DNA from: a virus
Reading direction: 5' to 3' (one strand)
DNA length: 42,638 nt
Virus record (IMG/VR): IMGVR_UViG_3300047299_000023
Coordinates: 1-42,638 of that record
The translations under genes were made by a program, and so were the position numbers. The notes beneath the pieces were generated by a model. That model made no database searches and was not told where the DNA came from. It saw only the letters and a program-made list of their open reading frames with translations. Of this stretch, positions 25,523 through 37,696 are shown piece after piece; position 1 is the stretch's first letter, and every line of letters begins with the position of its first letter.

Positions 25523-27190
25523 TTAGAACACGATAGGAGAAGGTGCACAGCAGGACTCAGCATCGTCGTCACCGACTTGACTAGAGCCGCCGTAGCCAGA
25601 CATGAGCAACTGCCCATCGTCAAGCAAGAACAAGGAAGCGCCCTCGTTGGTATGACCTGAGGTGTTAATGTCCACCACAGTGCGCACACCGCCAATAGGA
25701 ACTGGTGTAAATGCTGCACGGTTTGTAAAGTCACCAACACCTAATGCGCCGTTGGCGTTGTAGCCAGTGGCGTACACTGCACCATCAGAGGCGAGCAGTA
25801 GGGTGAAGCCATAGTCAGTGGTACCACCAATCACAATCTTACTTACCGTGGTGCCAGCGTTAAGCGGCAAACCAGTGAGCTGTGTGAACGTGGTCAAGTC
25901 ACCAACTGCACGACCAAGTTGACCTTGGTTGTTACGGCCTGTAACCCAGATTGTGCCATCAGTCTTCTTGATGATGGTACTTGGGTAGTCGTACGCACTT
26001 GTGTACACATCTGCTACGTTGGTGCTCACCACGATGGGTGTAGAGATAGCTGTACCAGCAACCGCCCCACTACCAATGCACCCGTAGTTGCTTGTGCCCC
26101 AGCCGTAGAGGGTGCCCGTGGTAGATAGTGCGAAGCATCCGTAAGCGAACGGGAATAGTTTGGCAACTGTGATATTGTTTGTAACGAAGTACGCAATAGC
26201 CGTGGGGATGTTTGCTTGTGTGGCATTACCATTACCGAGCTGGTACTCACCGTTGTAGCCCCATGCGTAGGGCACGCCAGCAGTAGTGAGTGCGTAGTAC
26301 GTAGTGTAGCGCTCACGCCCTGCGTAAATCGAAGCTACGTTAGTGAGCACAGGAAGTTCTGTGAACACGCTGCGTTGCACAACGTCACCTTGACCAAGTT
26401 GGCCGTAACCGTTGTAGCCACATGCGTGCACTTTACCATCAGAAGTCAAGACGCAAGTGCTGCCATAACCCTCGGGTGAGAGCGTATGTGCAACTGATGT
26501 GACTGTCTTGCCAATCAATGAACCGTAGTCGCTAGAACGTACTGGCACATAGCGGTTGGTCGTGTCATTCACACCGAGTTGTCCGTAGCCATTGGAACCC
26601 CATTGCCAGAGTTTGCCGAGTGTGTCGATAGCGCGGCTACCTACATCACCGTAACCTGTGTAAAGTTTAGACACGCCAGTGAAACCGAACGGGAATGCTG
26701 TCTTCTGTGGCGAGGTCTTGGCATTGGTGCTGTTACCAACACCCAAACCATACGCATCGTTAGCACCCCAGCCGCGCACAGTGCCATCATTCATAATGAC
26801 CATAGGGCGGCGGTACGCAATACTGCGATGCTCAAGTAGTTTGGCAACCTTCACGCCCGAGCGTGTTTCCGGCACGCCCCACACGGGGAGGCCCGTGACT
26901 GAATCAATCTTGAGCACTTGTCCTGATGTGCCCTTGGGCAAGCGGACAAGTTGTGCACCATCAAAGTAGATGAGGTCGCCTGAGGCTGCGCCAATATTGG
27001 CCGAACCTTGGGCGGCGAGTGCCCATGTTACACCGTTGTCGCTGGGAGTAACGCCAGTGACTGACGCACCCACACACACGAAGGAGTCACCGTTGTAACT
27101 CACCACGTCTTGCAGCTTGTACGTTGTACCTGCTGCGTACGCGCCACGCCATGTGAACGCGATTTTACCGAGAGAGACTGTAGCAGTCAT
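25523..27190 (-). CDS. RCC1-type beta-propeller tail protein 2
   Basis: This is a 555-aa protein. Residues of about 8-45 (FTWRGAYAAGTTYKLQDVVS, YNGDSFVCVGAS) resemble the small domain often found at the start of tail fibre modules. The rest consists of RCC1-type repeats of about 50 residues, each centred on a W/G-rich strand: VRGWGAND, LWQWGSNGYGQLG, VHACGYNGYGQLG, PYAWGYNGEYQLG, LYGWGTSNYG, IWVTGRNNQGQLG, VYATGYNANGALG and LLMSGYG. That gives a seven- or eight-bladed propeller. The end QVGDDDAESCCAPSPIVF mirrors that of the neighbour. Its place after the tail fibre gene makes it a likely receptor-binding protein; this is inference. Confidence 0.8.
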   Translation of the reverse strand: MTATVSLGKIAFTWRGAYAAGTTYKLQDVVSYNGDSFVCVGASVTGVTPSDNGVTWALAAQGSANIGAASGDLIYFDGAQLVRLPKGTSGQVLKIDSVTGLPVWGVPETRSGVKVAKLLEHRSIAYRRPMVIMNDGTVRGWGANDAYGLGVGNSTNAKTSPQKTAFPFGFTGVSKLYTGYGDVGSRAIDTLGKLWQWGSNGYGQLGVNDTTNRYVPVRSSDYGSLIGKTVTSVAHTLSPEGYGSTCVLTSDGKVHACGYNGYGQLGQGDVVQRSVFTELPVLTNVASIYAGRERYTTYYALTTAGVPYAWGYNGEYQLGNGNATQANIPTAIAYFVTNNITVAKLFPFAYGCFALSTTGTLYGWGTSNYGCIGSGAVAGTAISTPIVVSTNVADVYTSAYDYPSTIIKKTDGTIWVTGRNNQGQLGRAVGDLTTFTQLTGLPLNAGTTVSKIVIGGTTDYGFTLLLASDGAVYATGYNANGALGVGDFTNRAAFTPVPIGGVRTVVDINTSGHTNEGASLFLLDDGQLLMSGYGGSSQVGDDDAESCCAPSPIVF

Positions 27191-27198
27191 AATGATCC

Positions 27199-28854
27199 TT
27201 AAAAGCGAATGGGTTGCGGGGTGCTAGTGTTCTCACCATCATCGTCACCATTCATGCTGTACTCACCTTGACCAGATACGAGCACCTGCCCAATGTCATT
27301 GAGTGCATACACTACGTTGGAGTGCTGTGATTCATAGCGATAGCCGCCAAAAGCGAAGTCCACAATGGGACGCTCGCTGAGATAGAAGCTATTGGGCATC
27401 TGTGACTCTGTAAATAGTCCGTTACCTGATTGTCCAGCAAGTCCACCACCCCAAACAACAAGCTGCCCATCAGAGCGCAGTGCTGCACCTGTAGCGCCAT
27501 ATTGTGCACCCTGTACACGGAGTTTCACAATGTTTGTTAAGTAGCCTGCGCCAATGGTTGCCCATGTAGTAGTATCTGTACTGTTTGCACCGTTGATGTT
27601 AAAGCCTTGATAGCCCCGTGCCTGCACAGTACCATCGTTCATAAGCGCAATCGCAACTTGGTAGCCACCGAAGGCCACGTAAATATCTTTTACGTTTGTA
27701 TGGAAGGGCGTACCTGTAGGCGGCAAGTCTGGAGCCATCGAATAGCCCATGCCAGTTTGTCCAGCACCAACACCACGAATGTACACGTCACCATTCTCAA
27801 AGAGAATACCTGAACCCCAGTCGTACTGTTGCCCGGCGACCCAGTGTTGATCGTCCTCACCCCAAAACATTTTCTTAACACGACGACCACCAAGGTCAAG
27901 ACGGTTATGAACAGTCCAAGAGTTTGTAGTATTCCATGACAGGGCGTTGTCACCAGCAGTCCATGCGTAGCCATCGTAGTCAATGAGGCACGATGCGCCA
28001 TAGTAGCCACCGTTGGTCACGGCGTATTTCATCGGCACAGTTGCAGTAATTGGAATGAGAGTAGCTGTTGTGATAACACCAGTCACACCCAAGCCTGCAC
28101 AGCCAGTTTGGTTATAGCCCCACACGTACACGCGCCCTTGGTCATCACGAGCCATAGGTGTTGGGTAGTTGGTATTGCCATAGTGACAATGCACATCAAC
28201 AATCTTTGCGGTTGCTGGAATGCCAGAGAAACCGTTGAGTTTTACTGGAGTGCGTACAACGCCCGTTAGGCCGCGCCCCGACATGCAGTTAGCATCATTA
28301 GAGCCGCTGTACCACAAGCCACCAGTTGTGTCAATGTAGAAGCTGTTTGCCCACGTGCACACTACTTTTGCAATTTCTATGCCCTTGGGGAAAACTGCCC
28401 GGCTAGGTGTCCAGCGAGAAGCACCACTATCAGTGCGCCCATCGCCTAACTGCCCAGCATCTGTACGTCCAATGCTGCGTACTGAGCCGTCAGTCATAAC
28501 AAACATGCCAAAGCGGTTGGTAGCATAGGCACCCCGATGGTTCTGTACTGTGTCCATCAGGCGGGCACAGGTAGTGCCATTACGGTCAAGGGTGTAGCGA
28601 AACTCAATAGAGTCATCTACGTTACTGTGCAACGCTTGTCCATCAATACCGCCAACACTTGCACCGCCTGTAAGCATGTGACCCTTGGTGATGGCATCTT
28701 GCTGACCCAGCAGGAATGGTTCCCAGTTGCCGTTACGCATCACGTACAGACCACCAGTTTTAAATACAACGTCACGCTCGGTGTACGTTCCGGTGCTTAC
28801 AAAGTCGCCTTGCCAGATGTAGCCAAGCGCTTCAATGTTCATTTGTAAATTCAC
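27199..28854 (-). CDS. RCC1-type beta-propeller tail protein 1
   Basis: This 551-aa protein has the same layout as the next gene: an N-terminal YIWQGDFVSTGTYTERDVVF segment, a linker, then RCC1-type blades (VRSIGRTDAGQLGDG, LWYSGSNDANCMSG, VYVWGYNQTGCAGLG, VYIRGVGAGQTGMG, VQARGYQG, LVVWGGGLAGQSGNG, VLVSGQGEYSMNGDDDG) and the end TPQPIRF. The blades are more divergent than in its neighbour, so the two are old duplicates. The ATG overlaps the tail fibre stop (ATGA), which ties it to the fibre. It probably sits at the fibre tip or tailspike and binds a cell-surface molecule. Confidence 0.8.
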   Translation of the reverse strand: MNLQMNIEALGYIWQGDFVSTGTYTERDVVFKTGGLYVMRNGNWEPFLLGQQDAITKGHMLTGGASVGGIDGQALHSNVDDSIEFRYTLDRNGTTCARLMDTVQNHRGAYATNRFGMFVMTDGSVRSIGRTDAGQLGDGRTDSGASRWTPSRAVFPKGIEIAKVVCTWANSFYIDTTGGLWYSGSNDANCMSGRGLTGVVRTPVKLNGFSGIPATAKIVDVHCHYGNTNYPTPMARDDQGRVYVWGYNQTGCAGLGVTGVITTATLIPITATVPMKYAVTNGGYYGASCLIDYDGYAWTAGDNALSWNTTNSWTVHNRLDLGGRRVKKMFWGEDDQHWVAGQQYDWGSGILFENGDVYIRGVGAGQTGMGYSMAPDLPPTGTPFHTNVKDIYVAFGGYQVAIALMNDGTVQARGYQGFNINGANSTDTTTWATIGAGYLTNIVKLRVQGAQYGATGAALRSDGQLVVWGGGLAGQSGNGLFTESQMPNSFYLSERPIVDFAFGGYRYESQHSNVVYALNDIGQVLVSGQGEYSMNGDDDGENTSTPQPIRF

Positions 28855-29768
28855 AGAGTCACCACCAGTTCATTGTTAATGATTGAGAAGGTCAAGCCCT
28901 CGCTAATCATGGAGGACTCAAAATCACTGGCGGTAAACTCACCGTCTCGCCCAAATGTGAGTAGGAGTTCTGAACCGTCAGCGGAAACTTTAAAGCCGTA
29001 GAAGACAGGGCGGGCTGTTGATGCTACGAACTCGTAGCCAGACTCGTCAGCCTTAACCTGCAAGAACTGCATAGCAGCACCTACGACAGACGTAGGCAAA
29101 CCAGCAGCAATCAAGCGGGCGGTTGTCTGCGCCAGCAAGTCTTGCATTGTGCTAGTGATTGCAGCACTGTCTGCTTCAAGCTCGCTCAGGATTGCGTTAC
29201 CATCCGTGTTGATAGTATTGATCTTGTCGTTACCGATAGAGGTAAGGTCAGCAATCGCTGTGGTCGCAGTCTGTTCTGCTTCGGCAGCAGAGGCAGCGGA
29301 CGCAGCAGCGGCGGCTTGTGACGCAGACTTAGCGGCCTGCGCCTCAGTGATCGCATTGTTCGCCGCGTCAAGTGTAATTGTGATAGAGGTCGTCAGTTGC
29401 TTGACAATATCAGCGTTTGATGCGTCAGCAGTCTCAGCGCCGATAAACACAGCTTGCTGTGCCACCTTATCCAAGTTAGCCTCAGTCAAGCGGCTACCAG
29501 TTGTGAAGTCTACCAGCGGGCCACCCTTAGGCGTGTCGCGGTAGATAACGATGTTCTTCCCTACAGGGATAGGAACACCAATGTCGATTGTGAAGTCACC
29601 CACAAACATTGAGGGCAAGATTTCAAGGTCAACCCGTGCTAGTGTCTCGGCGTCCTCAATGTACGCCTTAACATGGGTCTTATCCATGTAGCCACCAGAG
29701 AAGCTGAACTCGAACTGTGTGTTCACACCATCACCGGGAACCCGATATGTCGCGTATAGCGTAGTCAT
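28851..29768 (-). CDS. Tail fibre protein with T7 gp17-type N-terminal anchor
   Basis: The first 150 residues of this 305-aa protein match the T7 tail fibre N-terminal domain: YRVPGDGVNTQFEFSFSGGY, VGKNIVIYRDTP and SRLTEANLDKVAQQAVFIGA. This part attaches fibres to the tail tube. An Ala/Ser-rich coiled coil follows (AAKSASQAAAAASAASAAEA), then a short beta domain. It lacks a large receptor-binding head, so it is likely an adaptor on which the two following propeller proteins are mounted. GGAG precedes the ATG and a promoter-like motif lies 20 bp upstream. Confidence 0.9.
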   Translation of the reverse strand: MTTLYATYRVPGDGVNTQFEFSFSGGYMDKTHVKAYIEDAETLARVDLEILPSMFVGDFTIDIGVPIPVGKNIVIYRDTPKGGPLVDFTTGSRLTEANLDKVAQQAVFIGAETADASNADIVKQLTTSITITLDAANNAITEAQAAKSASQAAAAASAASAAEAEQTATTAIADLTSIGNDKINTINTDGNAILSELEADSAAITSTMQDLLAQTTARLIAAGLPTSVVGAAMQFLQVKADESGYEFVASTARPVFYGFKVSADGSELLLTFGRDGEFTASDFESSMISEGLTFSIINNELVVTL

Positions 29769-29822: not shown

Positions 29823-32800
29823 TTACTCTTTGAGCGCGTTTACACCAATCAGGAAGAAAGGCGTACGGCTAAACGGCAGCGCTTTCGCAACCTTGTACGG
29901 ATCAGTAGGATCGTGCACGGCTTTGCCAACGTCTTCAATATAGCCAGCGGCAGGCAGCACGGAAGACACAATGCTACCACTACCCTTGCGGCCACCAGTC
30001 TCAGTGCCAGCCACGCTACCCAACAAGTCCATGACCTCACCAGCAAAGCCGGAGGAGCCAACGTAGTTGAGAGATGCACGTGCTAAGTTCAATGGGTCAA
30101 GCTGCTTAGCGAGGTACTCATCTTTGTCTGCGCGGCCCTGTGCACTGAACGCGATACGCGCCAGCACAACAGGCATAGCAAACGCCATTGAGCCTACCAA
30201 GATACCCATAGCACCAGCTACACCGTGGTTGCCTTTGTTACGCGCCCACTGCTTCTCCAAAGCTACCAATGGGAAATTGCGGAACTGCGAGAGCAAGCGG
30301 CCCATGTCGCTGTGTGTCCAGCGGCCAGTCTCGCCAATGAATGAACCTTGGATGATCTGGTTGCTGCCACGCACAACGGCTTGGTGAAACTCGTTAGCTG
30401 CGTCAATGTCGCTGATCTTTGAAATGTCAAACTCCTTGATGCGGCCAAACGCATCGCGCTTGACAACCTTCTCCATCTCAGCTTTGAACACTTCACGTAC
30501 ACGCGGCGAGAAGCCCATGTCCGACAGCGCCTTATCATCAGTACCTTCACGAATATACCGCAGTGCCTTGTGCACAATTTGCTCCGACATACCACGCACC
30601 TGAGCAGCGTGGATAGCGCGGTGCATAGACAGCACGCTAGACACGTGAGCACCAGTCTTGAGCGCACGGTCAAACCATGTCACGGACTCATGCCCATAGC
30701 TTGAGTAGTTCGCCTCTGGGTTCGTGTGCATGGTAGTCATGGTGTAACCATCAAGACCAAACTCACCGCCACCGCCGAACTGCTCCATGTGACCCAAGAT
30801 ACCGTTCTCCACTTTCTCACCGCGTGCAATGGCGTGCACCTCGCCGATCAAGCGTGGCATATCAACGATGGACTCCAGCGTGTTCTTCACACCAACAGCC
30901 CACACACCGTTGAAGGATTCACCAAACTGCGGGAAACCCATGCCACCCAGCTTCACTAGCGAAGTAACGGAGAGCAGACGATCCATGCCGCGTGTGCGTG
31001 CATCACCGAAAGGCCGACCAAGGAACTCAGCAGCAATCTGGTCAAACGCCTTCATCACTTGCTCGTGGTTCTTGTCTTTTGGCCCGTGCATCAGCGCCGT
31101 GCGCAGCAGGGTCAGGCCCTGTGCACCCATCACACCGTGATTAGCCAGCGCCACTTCGCCGCTCACGCGACTTGCGTAGTTGCTCAGCAATGTCAAATGG
31201 TCAGTGTTGAACAAGTCCATAAGTGTGCCCATGCTGCCATCAGCTTTGGGGAACGCTTGGTTCAAGTTCAAGTGCAGACGCTTCTTCGTATGCCCTGCAC
31301 CACCAGCAGAGTAGCGGCCCATTGCAGCGCCTACTTCTTCTTTGGTCATGCCCATAGCTTCAAGCGCACCGCGCACCATCTCCGCAGCAGCGGGGTTATG
31401 CACGTTGGCAGGAATCTCGTGTCCACCGAATGCGTTGACGCGGGCGTGGTTCAAGTACGTGCGGGCCGGCTCCTCAGCGAACTTGGCGTCGAAGCCTTCG
31501 ATCTCTTGGAACTGCTTTGAGAGTACATCAGAGAAAGCACGCAGTTGATCTGGTGTCATCTCCTTGATGCGGCCCGAGGCCAGTACGTGAGGCATGTAGC
31601 CACGCGAACTTTCTGGGAGCCGTGCCCATCCAACAGTCTTTGTGTCAACCTGTGCAACACGCATGCGCTCATACGCTTTCTCAAGCGTGTCGGCAGCTTG
31701 CGCAACCAGTGGATGTGGCTCCGTCTTCTCACCGTGCAGACGTGAATCTTGCTCAGCAGCGACAGCGCGGTTAAACGCGTCACGGTCACGGACATTCCAG
31801 TGATCCTTGATTGCGTTACCGCCCACCTCATCGCGCCATGCAGCGTAGAAGCGGTCAAACTCCAACTTGCTGTGGCCGATGTACCCTTTCTCAAGGATGT
31901 ACTTAGACAGCGCGGCAGTAGCACGACGACCACTTGCACCAGACGCATTCTCCAACAACACACCAGCGACCATGCGAGCAACTGGGTTGGGGCTGATAGC
32001 CATGATGGTAGCAGGCAATGCCACGTTGAAGGTGTCGTTGTTGCCAAGCATTGACTTGAGCAACTCCTCATCTGTTGGGTTATTCACATTCCACTTCTCA
32101 GCCTGCTTGTAAATGTCAAGCACAGCCTTGAACTCGGAACGCTCACGTGGTGTACCCTGCGGCATCAAGTCCAGACCGTTACGCTTTGCCACTTCCTCAT
32201 TAGCTGGATCAATGCGGGGTGCAGTAGTAGGTGCAGCCAGATCATCAGCGCCAGCAGTGGCGGCAGCTTTTGGAGCGGGAGCAGCCTCAGCAGCAGCGGC
32301 TCGGTTGGATGCACGCACACCTTCAATGAACTGCTCAAAGCTCTCGGAGGCGCGTAGCATGCCTTTGTCCTGTGCAGTGGTGAACAGGTCAACAAGGCGC
32401 TTGAACAATGCAGCCACCATGCTCACAAAGTTCTTGTCGTACATGACAGTAGCACCGGGGCCGATACCACGTGCGCCTGCTTCGCTATACTTTGAGAACT
32501 GCTCAGCCAAGAACTCCTCGAAGTTGCCATAATACTTATCAGCAAATGACTTATCGCGGGCGCTCGCAATCGCTTGATGCAGCGACTTGTCGCCCATGTT
32601 TGCGTTCTCGCTGTGCACCATTGGGCTGCGCAGCATCAATGCGTCAGCAGCTTTCTTTGGTGTACGATACAGCAACGCCCAGTCCTTGTATGCCTGCAAC
32701 AGTTTATCTAACTGCTCAGGTGGTAGGTTTGGAACGAACTGTCGAGAGATCATGTGACCAAGCTCGTGCGTCAGCGTGCTTGCTAGCGTAGCAGAACCGG

Positions 32801-34634
32801 GGCGTAACGCAATCAGTGACGCTTGCTTGGAAATAGCCACGTGTGCACCGTCAGGTATAATCATCTCGCCGCTGATGTTGCGGGTCTGAATAACCTTTGA
32901 GAGCACGATTGTGCGACCGGGCAAGAACTCCTTATACAGCGGCGTGAGCATCTGTTGGTACAACTTAAAGATTGGGAGGTCTTTAACGCTGTCCGATAAA
33001 TGCACACCCTCGCCCAGTGCGTGCACAGTATCCACGTCAAGCTCTGGGCTGTACGCCTTGAGTTTGGATTCACCCTCCTGTGTACGCATCAGCATCTCAC
33101 GCGTGGTCAAGTCCATGCGGCTGTCGTAGCTAGGTGCAGCATTGAGGTCATCCATAGCGTGCGCTTCAACCGACAGCTTACCGGGTTCCGCAGTCTTCGC
33201 CATGCCCTTGATGCGCTCGCGCACCTGCTTGCCATATTCACGTGCACGCACTTCGGAGTATCCCGTGGAGTCCATAACGAACTTGAGGTAATCGGCATCG
33301 CGTTTACTGGGCTTGTTGCCAGCAATGATGTAGGCAGCGCGATCAACGTCATTTGCAAACTCAAGATCAAACTGCTTTGCGCCATAGGAGTAGCGCGGTG
33401 CAGCCTTTGCAAGTGCGGCAGGCAGGGCAGTAGGTGCCTCTGTGGGTGTAGCCTTCGGGGTTGCCTCAGGTTCTACTGTTTTCACAGCGGGCACTTCGTC
33501 TGCTGCCTTTGCAACAGTACCATCTGCCTGTGCTTTTGGGGCCTCTACAACTGGAGGCTCCTCGGGAGGCATCTCGTCGAGGTTGTGTGCTGGGATGCGA
33601 TCATCTTCTTTTGCGCGTGTAGCTGCGGCTCGTTGCACAGTAGCAACTTGCTCACGCTCAAGGCGCTCAGCCTCTTTAATCTTCACTTCGTCGGGTGCGT
33701 CTTTACCCACGTTCTCAAGGGCCTGCTGCATGATCTTTGCCTTGCGCATTTCGCCTTCGACACGAATGCGAGTAGCAAGACTTTCTTGCGCTTGCTTGTA
33801 AGCCAGCGGGCCAGTCACGGTAGATGGGATCAAGCCCATCATTGCAGCAGCACCGTAATCATACATTGACTTGTGCTCGCCCATAATATCTAACGCGCCC
33901 TCAACAGCCACGTTACCAACCACGTTTTCTGCTACGTTCGACACGACAGCCGCAGCCTTGCGGCCCTGTAACGCAAGCTGCGTTGAACTCAGGCCCAGTT
34001 TTGCAACGGCCCCGCTCATGCCAATGCCCGCTACCCAGTTCACTGGGTTTGCAATGCCAGCCAACAACCCATAGCCTATTTGTCCAGCAGTGCCTGACGT
34101 AGCGAGAATCTCAGCGTTCTCACGCTGGGTCTTAATACGCTCAACTCGGTGATCCCAGTCGTCTTTGTTGTTCGCACCTTGAAGAAGCTCTTGCTCCTCG
34201 TCAGTGTAGCCAGCAAAGTATTTCTCCCAATTCTTGTTGCGGTCATCGCGCCATGCAACATCCAGTCGATCAGTTGATGGACGGATTGTGCGCACAAGCG
34301 CATCAATGTACGGGGTCATCTCGTTCTGATAAGCAGCGCCTACTTTAGCAGTAAACCCTACAGACTGGTCAGCAGCGTATTTAGCGCGAGCTTGCGCGTC
34401 GAGCTGCTCTGCCAACGATGGTTCGTCCGCGATCATACGTGGGTCAGTCGCAGCATACATGGAGTTTGCTTTGGGACGCAGGGACTCCACTGGTGCCTGC
34501 GGCTTCTTTCCCTTACCACGTGGGAGTGGGCGTGGCCCACCAACTTGGTCGTACATCGTAGAAGCGGCAGTGCGTGCGCCGCCCGTTACTCCATCATTTG
34601 CAGGCAGGTCGCCTGTCACTTCATCCAATGTCAT
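29823..34634 (-). CDS. Large internal virion protein, gp16-like, with HELGH motif
   Basis: This is a 1603-aa ejected core protein at the T7 gene 16 position; its ATG overlaps the previous stop. It starts with a disordered segment, then membrane-active-looking segments (GQIGYGLLAGIANPVNWVAG). A Pro/Ala/Glu-rich linker spans about residues 345-415. A zincin-like motif THELGHMISRQF follows with H623, E624 and H627, and EEFLAEQF (E707/E711) could give the third ligand. The long C-terminal part is helical, with hydrophobic stretches (GAMGILVGSMAFAMPVVLAR). I do not see the lytic transglycosylase that T7 gp16 has near its N-terminus. It probably helps to bring DNA across the envelope; the peptidase activity is inferred. 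Confidence 0.9.
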   Translation of the reverse strand: MTLDEVTGDLPANDGVTGGARTAASTMYDQVGGPRPLPRGKGKKPQAPVESLRPKANSMYAATDPRMIADEPSLAEQLDAQARAKYAADQSVGFTAKVGAAYQNEMTPYIDALVRTIRPSTDRLDVAWRDDRNKNWEKYFAGYTDEEQELLQGANNKDDWDHRVERIKTQRENAEILATSGTAGQIGYGLLAGIANPVNWVAGIGMSGAVAKLGLSSTQLALQGRKAAAVVSNVAENVVGNVAVEGALDIMGEHKSMYDYGAAAMMGLIPSTVTGPLAYKQAQESLATRIRVEGEMRKAKIMQQALENVGKDAPDEVKIKEAERLEREQVATVQRAAATRAKEDDRIPAHNLDEMPPEEPPVVEAPKAQADGTVAKAADEVPAVKTVEPEATPKATPTEAPTALPAALAKAAPRYSYGAKQFDLEFANDVDRAAYIIAGNKPSKRDADYLKFVMDSTGYSEVRAREYGKQVRERIKGMAKTAEPGKLSVEAHAMDDLNAAPSYDSRMDLTTREMLMRTQEGESKLKAYSPELDVDTVHALGEGVHLSDSVKDLPIFKLYQQMLTPLYKEFLPGRTIVLSKVIQTRNISGEMIIPDGAHVAISKQASLIALRPGSATLASTLTHELGHMISRQFVPNLPPEQLDKLLQAYKDWALLYRTPKKAADALMLRSPMVHSENANMGDKSLHQAIASARDKSFADKYYGNFEEFLAEQFSKYSEAGARGIGPGATVMYDKNFVSMVAALFKRLVDLFTTAQDKGMLRASESFEQFIEGVRASNRAAAAEAAPAPKAAATAGADDLAAPTTAPRIDPANEEVAKRNGLDLMPQGTPRERSEFKAVLDIYKQAEKWNVNNPTDEELLKSMLGNNDTFNVALPATIMAISPNPVARMVAGVLLENASGASGRRATAALSKYILEKGYIGHSKLEFDRFYAAWRDEVGGNAIKDHWNVRDRDAFNRAVAAEQDSRLHGEKTEPHPLVAQAADTLEKAYERMRVAQVDTKTVGWARLPESSRGYMPHVLASGRIKEMTPDQLRAFSDVLSKQFQEIEGFDAKFAEEPARTYLNHARVNAFGGHEIPANVHNPAAAEMVRGALEAMGMTKEEVGAAMGRYSAGGAGHTKKRLHLNLNQAFPKADGSMGTLMDLFNTDHLTLLSNYASRVSGEVALANHGVMGAQGLTLLRTALMHGPKDKNHEQVMKAFDQIAAEFLGRPFGDARTRGMDRLLSVTSLVKLGGMGFPQFGESFNGVWAVGVKNTLESIVDMPRLIGEVHAIARGEKVENGILGHMEQFGGGGEFGLDGYTMTTMHTNPEANYSSYGHESVTWFDRALKTGAHVSSVLSMHRAIHAAQVRGMSEQIVHKALRYIREGTDDKALSDMGFSPRVREVFKAEMEKVVKRDAFGRIKEFDISKISDIDAANEFHQAVVRGSNQIIQGSFIGETGRWTHSDMGRLLSQFRNFPLVALEKQWARNKGNHGVAGAMGILVGSMAFAMPVVLARIAFSAQGRADKDEYLAKQLDPLNLARASLNYVGSSGFAGEVMDLLGSVAGTETGGRKGSGSIVSSVLPAAGYIEDVGKAVHDPTDPYKVAKALPFSRTPFFLIGVNALKE

Positions 34635-36916
34635 TGATTACCTTTCATCTTTCGTTGATACTCTCGGTATGCTGCCCATTCTTCGGGCTTAGCGTAGATG
34701 CTAGGCATCTCCGAGGGTGGTCGAATAGAGCCAAGCAAAGACTTCTTACCGTATGCTTTGATTTGATCTGAGTTGATGACGATGGGTACGTCATTGCTGC
34801 CTTGAACGACAGCGTGAAAATAAGCCTTACCGCCACGATCAGCGACACGGTAGAGCTGTAGCTTGTCCACATCAAGGCCACGCTCCTGCGCAGCTACTTT
34901 CAATGTGGCATCAACAGCTTGTCCCATCTTCTCAGGTGACATGAACTCCTTACCACCAGCCTGAAAGAATGTCTCAATGCCGGGTTGTGCACTGTCACGT
35001 GACCATGCCCAACGACCAGCCATCTCAAGACCGTCAGCCTTGGCGCCACCCATCGCCATCTTGAACAACGCATCACCACTGGCCTGTGTGCCGAAATTGC
35101 GCACGTGCGGTGTAAGCGCCTGTAGCATGTTGTTCATGCTACCATCAGACATGGTGTAGTCCTTGAAGAACATACCGGGTGCCATAGCGTTGATACGCTT
35201 GGTCACATCTTTGAGGGCTTCTTTCTCCAAAGGCTTCATGTCAGTGAGGCTACGCTTTGCTTGTTGGAATGCAACGTCAGCGAGTGCAGCGTTCTTTGGA
35301 TCAGCAGGATCACGGCCACCCATTGCAGCACTGAATGCTTGCAAGCGCTTATGGTCAGCAGCACCGAAGTACCGTACCTGTGCTTCTTGCCCACCAGTCT
35401 CAGCCATGTTCTTCCAAATGTCAAACGCCTTACCAAAGTTGGGATGGTACGTCTGACCGCTCACCGAGTTCACAAGAATCTCAAGCGTGTTCTTTACGTG
35501 CGGGTTGACGTACCCAGCGAGTGCGTTGTCCACCAGCATCTTGTTTGCAAGTGCACGGTTTGTCATCACAGTCTCAACTGTGGCATTGGGTGGAATCTCA
35601 GTCAAGCGGTTCCACTCAGCGTTGAATACTTCTTTGACGAGTGCAGCAGCACGGCCACCTTGGTCATGCGCAGTAGCTGCGCCACCCATGCGAATGGTTT
35701 GTACCATCATTGCACGTGCGGCCTCATTGTCAGTTTGTGTAGCAGCAGCGGAGGCAGTGGCACGCTGCATGCGGAAGACAGCGGACATAGCTGCACGCTC
35801 GTCAGCCACGTAGTCACCCTTGCGGATCAACGGCTGCGAGTTGCCGGACTTGGTGCGGTACTCGTTGTTGAGTTCATCGTACAGTTGGTGCACACGCTTC
35901 GCAGAGATCAAGCCGTTCTGTGCGTCCTCTTTGATTTGAGAGATGCGCGGGCTGTACTCAATCGCAGCCTCAGAAGCGTGGTTCACTTCAAAGCGGTTAA
36001 TCATGCTCTCAACTGCGAGGCGCTTCTCAGGATTCATGCGTGACACTACACCCGCTTCACGGAATGCAGACACTGCGTGGAAGTTGCCCTTCTCAGCCAT
36101 GAGGCCCATCGACGTAGCGAGGTCTTTCTCCCACGATTCAGGGTCAGCGCCCATTGCAGGCGTACTCACGGCCATGAGCGCATCCTTGCGTTGTTGAATC
36201 TCCTCAGGCGTGTAGATGCCGGGTGATGCAGTTTGTGCAAGATTCAGCAACGAGCCTTGTGTCAGAATTGAATCAACACGTTGACGGCTCAGGTTTTCCT
36301 GCTGCCACTTGTAGTGCTCTTTCGTTTGACGCTTAATGAGCTGCGGGGCCATCTGCATGGCACGCATCTGCACAGCAGAATCAGTTGCTGCATCGCCCGT
36401 AGTCAACGCCTTCATGGACTCCGCGAGCACCTTAGGGATAGACTCTGGGCTGTGCGTGCGGAGCTTCTCCATTTCTTGCTCTTGCTTAGCAGCCCAGCTA
36501 CCCACTGATGTTTCTACAGTGTACGCACGTGCACCCTCAACGAGTGGAGCGTCACCATAAATCTTTGTGTACCACGGCTGATTGTTTACAATGTCTTGCA
36601 TTGCTTCACCAGACGCGGCCTTCTGCATACCTTTGAGGAACTGCTCCTCACGCATACGCTTCATGTGCGGGGCCATAATATCCTCGCCAACTTTCGTCAG
36701 CATTTGGATAGTGGCATCAGCACCAGCGCGGTCAACGCCCGGTGCCGCTGTGGTCAGGCCCGGAGCAACACTACCGCCCATGCCCATTTGCACAGGTACT
36801 GCTTGACCCTGTGGCCCAGCACCTGCACGTACTGCGTCAGGCGGCACGAACGTGAACGTACTTGGGCCACGCTCCTCGCCACCTTGACCTTTCTCTGAAA
36901 ATCCAGCCCAAACCAT
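34631..36916 (-). CDS. Internal virion (core) protein, gp15-like
   Basis: This 761-aa, mostly helical protein stands in the gene 15 position between the gp14-like and gp16-like genes. It is close in length to T7 gp15 (747 aa). It is rich in Met, Ala and Gln, with helical stretches (EAMQDIVNNQPWYTKIYGDA; MLTKVGEDIMAPHMKRMREE). In T7 the protein forms the periplasmic tunnel for DNA during infection. The C-terminus EEWAAYREYQRKMKGNQ overlaps the next gene by 4 bp. Confidence 0.85.
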   Translation of the reverse strand: MVWAGFSEKGQGGEERGPSTFTFVPPDAVRAGAGPQGQAVPVQMGMGGSVAPGLTTAAPGVDRAGADATIQMLTKVGEDIMAPHMKRMREEQFLKGMQKAASGEAMQDIVNNQPWYTKIYGDAPLVEGARAYTVETSVGSWAAKQEQEMEKLRTHSPESIPKVLAESMKALTTGDAATDSAVQMRAMQMAPQLIKRQTKEHYKWQQENLSRQRVDSILTQGSLLNLAQTASPGIYTPEEIQQRKDALMAVSTPAMGADPESWEKDLATSMGLMAEKGNFHAVSAFREAGVVSRMNPEKRLAVESMINRFEVNHASEAAIEYSPRISQIKEDAQNGLISAKRVHQLYDELNNEYRTKSGNSQPLIRKGDYVADERAAMSAVFRMQRATASAAATQTDNEAARAMMVQTIRMGGAATAHDQGGRAAALVKEVFNAEWNRLTEIPPNATVETVMTNRALANKMLVDNALAGYVNPHVKNTLEILVNSVSGQTYHPNFGKAFDIWKNMAETGGQEAQVRYFGAADHKRLQAFSAAMGGRDPADPKNAALADVAFQQAKRSLTDMKPLEKEALKDVTKRINAMAPGMFFKDYTMSDGSMNNMLQALTPHVRNFGTQASGDALFKMAMGGAKADGLEMAGRWAWSRDSAQPGIETFFQAGGKEFMSPEKMGQAVDATLKVAAQERGLDVDKLQLYRVADRGGKAYFHAVVQGSNDVPIVINSDQIKAYGKKSLLGSIRPPSEMPSIYAKPEEWAAYREYQRKMKGNQ

Positions 36917-36925
36917 AGGGACTCC

Positions 36926-37696
36926 TTATTTAAGTGAATACTGACTCGGGCTCGCCTTGAAGCTATACGCATTGGAAGGCCCGCTGCTCAAGCTGTAGGG
37001 ATTGCTCGCATCGTATGGTGACGGCGTAGCCTGAACACCACTACCCGTACCAGTCTCTGCGCCGGGTGCTGGCCCCGGTTGCCCACCAGTGATAAGCGCC
37101 AGTGCGTGCTGACCAGCGGAGATCACGTCAGACCAGATGTTATCGCTGATGAGGTTCTCTTTCGCAATCGACTTGCTGTAGTCAATGCCAGCATTGATGT
37201 ACGTCATGTCAAGCCCAGCGATTGTCTGCGGCATGATACCGCTGATCTGGCCGAGCATGTCATAGGTTGCTTGACCTTGCGCCTTGCTACGTGCTTGTGC
37301 AGCACGCGCATTCTTGAGCTGCATGGTACGGTCAATCATGTCAACCGCATTACCACCTGTGCCTGTCATAGCAACGTGGGCGCTGTACGCACCCGCCGCC
37401 TCAGCAGCAGCGAGCTGCGTTTCTAAGCTACCTGTGGTGAACGCCTCTTGCATACGCTGCAAGTTGGTGACGCCTGCCTCAAGGTTCTTAGCACCCGCAG
37501 CCAACCGCCGCTTGTTGTTCTCGGTCTGCATGTAGTATGCGAGGCCAGTCTGTGCAGCTTTGGATTCATTCTGTGCTTCACGAATTTGATTCGCAGCATC
37601 AGCCTCCGCTGCCCAGACTTGGTTCTGAGCACGACGAACAGCGCGAGAAGAAGCACCATTGAAGATGCTCATAAACACGTTAGGACTACCTGCCAT
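36926..37696 (-). CDS. Internal virion protein, gp14-like
   Basis: This 256-aa protein is in the gene 14 position. The N-terminal two thirds are long helices (QVWAAEADAANQIREAQNES, NNKRRLAAGAKNLEAGVTNL). The C-terminal 50 residues are rich in Gly, Pro, Ser and Tyr (NPYSLSSGPSNAYSFKASPS), a flexible tail. T7 gp14 forms the outer-membrane pore of the ejection channel. The assignment is by order, size and composition. Confidence 0.82.
   Translation of the reverse strand: MAGSPNVFMSIFNGASSRAVRRAQNQVWAAEADAANQIREAQNESKAAQTGLAYYMQTENNKRRLAAGAKNLEAGVTNLQRMQEAFTTGSLETQLAAAEAAGAYSAHVAMTGTGGNAVDMIDRTMQLKNARAAQARSKAQGQATYDMLGQISGIMPQTIAGLDMTYINAGIDYSKSIAKENLISDNIWSDVISAGQHALALITGGQPGPAPGAETGTGSGVQATPSPYDASNPYSLSSGPSNAYSFKASPSQYSLK

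Follow-up and report, generated by a model that had tools for sequence, protein, structure and literature searches.

A putative gluzincin-type peptidase domain in the linker of a T7 gp16-like ejection protein

Introduction

Zincin-like metallopeptidases (MPTases) have been described in polyvalent proteins that are delivered by the virion, including the virion RNA polymerase of phage N4 (Iyer 2017, PMC5512222). They fall into 12 clades (Iyer 2017, PMC5512222), and in the N4 virion RNA polymerase, gp50, the zincin comprises residues 2124-2375 (PMC5512222). Self-processing and host targeting have both been proposed for the zincins of polyvalent proteins (PMC5512222). The core proteins of T7 exit the capsid and form a channel across the envelope (PMC11784390; PMC8954989), and the complex of phage phiM1 has to traverse an opening that is about 30 angstrom wide (PMC11440229). 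The open-access papers searched contain no report of a zincin in T7-like core proteins, the related work among them being confined to N4. The general kind, a zincin in an ejected protein, is already known, while its occurrence as a module in T7-like core proteins appears to be unreported in the open literature. Here, we describe such a candidate module and compare it with its relatives.

Results

Carrier protein and genome setting

The window, i.e. the whole stretch of 42,638 nucleotides that was analysed (IMG/VR record IMGVR_UViG_3300047299_000023), represents a T7-like podophage genome that encodes its own single-subunit RNA polymerase, portal, capsid, tube and nozzle proteins and a gp14/gp15/gp16-like set of core proteins. 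The protein of interest has 1603 amino acids, is encoded at 29823-34634 on the minus strand and contains the sequence STLTHELGHMISRQF in its translation. It matches phrog_342, named 'internal virion protein with endolysin domain', with E=5e-173, and a profile built from this protein and its relatives finds T7 gp16 (7eyb) at 4e-16 and the phiM1 tetrameric ejection protein, TEP (8vb2), at 3e-18. Homology across the body of the protein and the gene order with the gp15-like (34631-36916, minus strand, 761 aa, phrog_3883 at 1.8e-106) and gp14-like genes (36926-37696, minus strand, 256 aa, phrog_5745 at 2.6e-40) place it among the gp16-type internal virion (ejection) proteins, as had been proposed when the sequence was first read. 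Elsewhere on the same strand, two adjacent genes for RCC1-repeat (beta-propeller-like) proteins at 25526-27190 and 27202-28854 adjoin the gene for a short protein with a T7-type tail fibre N-terminus (28854-29768). One of the pair has a sub-threshold match to a carbohydrate-binding module, and the two may represent split, exchangeable fibre or receptor-binding modules.

The following parts of the gp16-like protein, all encoded on the minus strand, can be told apart. The N-block conserved in gp16-like proteins (residues 94-273, 33816-34355, by profile match) is not preceded by a lytic domain, with no Pfam match in the first 260 residues. It is followed by a linker rich in Ala and Pro (residues about 345-411, 33402-33602, read from the sequence), by a segment of about 75 residues (412-490, 33165-33401), by the core of the putative zincin domain (residues about 531-775, 32310-33044, supported by AlphaFold2, VIA-align and a 33-member family), by a second, C-terminal Ala/Pro-rich linker (residues 776-811, 32202-32309, again read from the sequence) and finally by the conserved C-terminal gp16 body (residues 812-1603, 29826-32201, by alignment and profile match). 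The segment 412-490 is shared with the ejection proteins of Sphaerotilus phage vB_SnaP-R1 and Macromonas phage BK-30P (tblastn, 6e-6 and 1e-4, respectively); it also bears a weak likeness to sequences of Prochlorococcus P-SCSP1 podophages and corresponds to no known domain.

Active-site motif and its conservation

The domain carries an HELGH motif at residues 623-627 (32754-32768, minus strand), in which H623 and H627 are the predicted zinc ligands and E624 is the predicted general base. The initial annotation had noted these three residues together with EEFLAEQF some 80 residues further on, and both elements are indeed part of the open reading frame, the latter as residues 706-713 (32496-32519, minus strand). 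E707, which opens the motif E-F-x-A-E-Q-F 80 residues past HELGH (32514-32516, minus strand), is the probable third zinc ligand. A710 and E711 of the same motif are encoded at 32502-32507 and Y701 at 32532-32534 (both minus strand), the tyrosine being a candidate transition-state stabilizer by analogy to known M34-type enzymes.

An HExxH motif on its own is only weakly unusual, as 0.06 occurrences are expected per protein of such composition and 5% of shuffled sequences contain one, and it is thus conservation that must decide whether the motif arose by chance. The set of homologous domains (family or subfamily A) comprises 33 sequences that are mostly 18-33% (about 22%) identical to the window sequence. 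H623, E624, H627, Y701, E707, A710 and E711 are invariant in all of them, so that the motif is kept in relatives, a point on which the initial annotation had made its proposal partly depend. Searches with a family profile in which the motif had been masked yielded no protein possessing the domain and lacking the motif, the two exceptions being contigs that start past the motif; the training sets for these profiles had been picked by the motif, which renders the test partly circular. Invariance across the family, the masked-profile search and the confident fold prediction described below rule out a chance HExxH with no zincin behind it, a reading that we regard as practically negligible.

Predicted fold and structural neighbours

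An AlphaFold2 model of residues 488-797, calculated from the 33 sequences, reached a pLDDT of 86.7 and a pTM of 0.85. Its elements are arranged in the order helix, strands, a helix with HExxH (130-149 in model numbering) and, after a further helix plus strands, a later helix (218-234) bearing E707 and E711. The arrangement is that of gluzincins, with the conserved HExxH in one helix and the glutamate that would serve as third ligand in a following one. The best structural neighbours detected by VIA-align are the catalytic domain of lethal factor and PPEP-1, PPEP-2 and PPEP-3 with moderate Z scores of 6-8, followed by other gluzincins such as aureolysin and LTA4 hydrolase with Z scores of 4.4-4.7, whereby absence of a structural family from these lists does not exclude it. 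Foldseek matches in the PDB are weak (best E 0.026), and among predicted viral structures the best matches, which include an entry with the annotation of a large polyvalent protein, reach 2e-6.

Profile searches with family A against PDB sequences returned only weak matches, and the zinc proteases among them were centred on HExxH. The initial annotation had suggested a comparison of the domain with zincin families and with polyvalent-protein domains. The first part of this suggestion led to no match among the Pfam and NCBIfam peptidase families: ATLF of Pfam was not hit up to E 10 and Peptidase_M78 (IrrE-like) stayed below its gathering score, with 16.2-16.9 bits in two relatives and 22 needed. 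As to polyvalent proteins, the PLxRFG protein of Microcystis phage Mel-JY34 contains a domain related to family A. Taken together, the sequence family and the model provide good support for the domain being a zincin of the gluzincin kind, probably closest to the lethal-factor/PPEP type. The zincin layout originally suspected therefore gains support from conservation, predicted fold and structural neighbours, and E707 is the residue favoured as third ligand.

Presence, exchange and divergence of the domain in the gp16 linker

A single-protein query of IMG/VR contigs gave no matches, whereas a query with a full-length alignment succeeded and led to 80 relatives, which were ranked by whole-protein similarity and for which the motif was not required. 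HExxH is present in all 52 entries with a linker of at least 359 residues, and the 28 entries in which the linker has at most 300 residues are all devoid of it, some entries in these counts being near-duplicates. A second subfamily, B, with the signature HExxHAAT ... YxLxNxxEFVA, occurs in 14 relatives and is typified by Providencia phage PSTNGR1. Upon comparison by hhalign, A and B align with a probability of 93.7% and an E value of 2e-7. The two catalytic motifs coincide in this alignment, so that E707 corresponds to the glutamate that is invariant in family B. On the basis of these alignments, we consider A and B to be remotely homologous zincin subfamilies.

In a tree of the C-terminal body, all 40 rows of one clade contain a zincin, and A and B replace each other within the starred sister pairs L023/L025 and L021/L034. 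Outside this clade, B, other inserts and the absence of any insert alternate, and about one third of the relatives in the tree do not have a zincin domain. In total, 11 state changes over four states are needed. Judging from the alignments, inserts may have entered the linker at two points, immediately on either side of an 'AxLYxxAQ...' helix segment, and most A and B domains reside at the second, just past this segment. As regards other cargo, the linker insert of L045 (7544-8326) gave a weak Pfam match to GNAT acetyltransferases (2e-4), below the curated cut-off. Yet another kind of insert in the gp16 linker is present in L065 (7577-8119); a GNAT domain suspected there by eye found no support in Pfam.

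The zincin has a lower mean pairwise identity than the C-terminal body (0.26 vs 0.50) and is the less conserved of the two in 98% of the pairs, while the N-block, with a mean identity of 0.28, has diverged to a similar extent as the zincin. The dN/dS values of the zincin, 0.05-0.14, signify purifying selection.

Cultured phages and solved ejection proteins

Among cultured phages, family A is found only in Curvibacter phage P26059B. Family B is much more widespread: the PSTNGR1 domain as query retrieved 46 records, 33 of which are from Pseudomonas phages and 25 of these from phages with P. putida as host, and the domain of Xanthomonas phage DoCa2 retrieved 63, which include some proteins other than internal virion proteins, one of them the virion RNA polymerase of Vibrio phage phi 1. 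The family B profile also matched the solved ejection proteins 9sfn_G (1e-17), 8vb2_A (1e-13) and 23sg_S (7e-6), and all three retain HExxH and a later glutamate aligned to those of family B. A model of family B (pLDDT 72.9, with 80-95 in most of the core) aligns to residues 172-516 of 8vb2 with a Z score of 12 and to residues 2131-2366 of the N4 virion RNA polymerase with a Z score of 7.6. Foldseek alone, run on the same model, ranked other zincins first, with weak E values. At the level of single sequences, hhalign aligned the active sites of family A neither with the N4 virion RNA polymerase nor with phiM1 TEP, and family B did not align to the single N4 sequence either but did so to phiM1.

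8vb2_A is identical to PhiM1_43 (L094:7198-10986), in which HEAAH is located at positions 385-389 and the later glutamate at 449. Residues 268-528 of this protein have been labelled endolysin/exotransglycosidase-like on the basis of BLASTP and DALI, and a protease, HExxH or a zinc site are not mentioned in the publication (PMC11440229). We found no Pfam lysozyme match in the phiM1 ejection protein, and instead of a lysozyme-type sequence match the domain exhibits HEAAH, E449 and a match to the zincin profile. The published label is thus likely to be wrong and the domain to be a zincin, judging from its sequence. It may have been inherited from the name under which such proteins are commonly annotated, 'internal virion protein with endolysin domain'.

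The label given to phiM1 and the PHROG name suggest that the module could be an endolysin-like enzyme directed against peptidoglycan. Metal enzymes of the HExxH type that cut peptidoglycan peptides do exist. The features of the phiM1 domain just listed speak against this idea, and so do the structural neighbours, which are protein peptidases, and the presence of a separate SLT, glucosaminidase or GH108 domain in many of the zincin-bearing relatives, so that we consider a peptidoglycan-directed enzyme very improbable.

The phiM1 structure bears on a further alternative, a catalytically dead or purely structural zincin that would, for example, shape DNA grooves around the core, given that in phiM1 the packaged DNA runs along a groove lined by the equivalent domain (PMC11440229). 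Such a role would leave the invariance of the catalytic glutamate and the metal ligands in both subfamilies unexplained, and copies devoid of the motif did not turn up in the masked-profile search. We deem it improbable, if a little less so than an attack on peptidoglycan.

Relation to the lytic domain

The initial annotation had stated that a transglycosylase domain is missing from the window protein, and Pfam searches agree, as neither this nor any other recognisable lytic domain was matched; the N-terminal lytic transglycosylase of T7 gp16 is lacking from some other homologues, too, and does not strictly define the group. The gp15-like protein (34631-36916) likewise has no recognisable peptidoglycan-degrading domain. 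In a scan of the N-termini of 57 proteins, we detected SLT in 27, glucosaminidase in seven and GH108 in one, and 39 of the 57, the window protein included, contain HExxH. With about 35 of the 57 bearing a lytic domain, some 17 or more must carry both, and Curvibacter phage P26059B provides a direct example of the two in one protein. The frequent coexistence characterizes the zincin as an independent module and rules out that it generally replaces the lytic domain. The initial hint that the zincin stands in for a lost transglycosylase can accordingly not be generalized. The window phage itself is a case of a zincin present alongside no recognisable lytic domain.

Discussion

Proposed function

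On the basis of sequence conservation and modelling, we propose, with a probability of roughly 0.6, that the gp16-like core protein carries a zinc peptidase as cargo which, once ejected, cuts a protein in the cell that has just been infected. H623, H627 and E707 would bind zinc and E624 would act as general base. Situated between Ala/Pro-rich linkers, the peptidase would be packaged with the core protein and exit the capsid as part of the core complex. An opening as narrow as that of phiM1 (about 30 angstrom) implies that the domain would have to unfold at least partly and to refold outside the virion, where it may then cleave a protein of the infected cell. With linkers on both sides, the enzyme would stay tethered, and periplasm, inner membrane and cytoplasm are all conceivable places for it to act.

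It is conceivable that the peptidase is instead made for self-processing and cuts its own carrier or other core proteins, either at assembly or once ejected; release of the lytic domain or remodelling of the channel across the envelope would be possible purposes. The location of the domain between linkers would be suited for this, since a cut there would part the N-block from the C-terminal body; moreover, autoprocessing has been proposed for polyvalent-protein zincins, and P1 DdrB is a known case of a processed protein (PMC5512222). On the other hand, the N4 virion RNA polymerase is packaged uncut (PMC5512222), and 8vb2 contains a model of 1103 of the 1263 TEP residues, by which this chain seems to be practically intact inside the virion. 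The fact that about one third of the relatives do without the domain means that proteins of this type do not generally have to be cut, and Pro-Pro sites in the linkers, considered as self-cleavage sites by reference to PPEP, are not enriched (17 observed vs 23 expected). Self-processing therefore appears unlikely to us, though clearly more probable than a structural or a peptidoglycan-directed role.

For the preferred reading, a peptidase ejected into the infected cell, we favour a host target with a part in the envelope, in takeover or in defence over the ejection proteins of the phage itself, because dispensability, swapping and fast divergence fit an effector better than self-processing. 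Fast divergence and swapping in particular suggest a non-self target. It is tempting to go one step further and to envisage, with odds somewhat short of even, that the cargo slot of the core proteins serves to bring an exchangeable protease effector into the host right as infection begins, so as to disarm or remodel specific host proteins. If this were true, the ejectosome would not only conduct DNA but also deliver effectors, and its slot would hold either of two zincin subfamilies and occasionally another enzyme such as a GNAT-like domain. The question of which roles ejected core proteins have beyond the channel could be reduced to a single-residue mutant. A testable protease candidate is at hand in the apparatus with which a large group of podophages ejects its DNA; the group includes more than 40 cultured members, many of which infect Pseudomonas putida KT2440.

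Comparison with known systems

T7 gp16 and the window protein have the N-block and the C-terminal body in common, but the distance between the two amounts to about 100 residues in T7 gp16 (409 to 513) and to more than 500 in the window protein, and T7 gp16 possesses an N-terminal transglycosylase, while no such domain is recognisable here. Lethal factor and the PPEPs (MEROPS M34/ATLF) are the best structural neighbours of the zincin domain, with which they presumably share the active-site layout HExxH ... E-F-x-A-E-x-F. Identity in the structural alignments is only about 12-18%, and the window domain, for its part, lies within a virion protein.

The MPTases described by Iyer, N4 gp50 included, reside in giant virion proteins that are ejected with the DNA and, like the window domain, combine HExxH with a glutamate in a later helix; the family B model matches the solved N4 domain (see above). 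The window protein would similarly be a multidomain protein with a zincin that is injected at infection, as its homology to T7 gp16 leads us to infer. Differences are that subfamily A has an E-F-x-A-E-Q-F motif of its own, with an active site that hhalign leaves unaligned to the single N4 gp50 sequence, and that the carrier is a core protein of the T7 gp16 type, the terms 'internal virion' and 'ejection' being absent from the main text of Iyer et al. (PMC5512222). Another close counterpart is gp48 of phiM1, the tetrameric ejection protein of 8vb2. Although its domain belongs to family B and the window domain to family A, the profile of which does not align to the phiM1 protein, both are T7-like core proteins in which a zincin-type domain is situated between the N-block and the C-terminal body.
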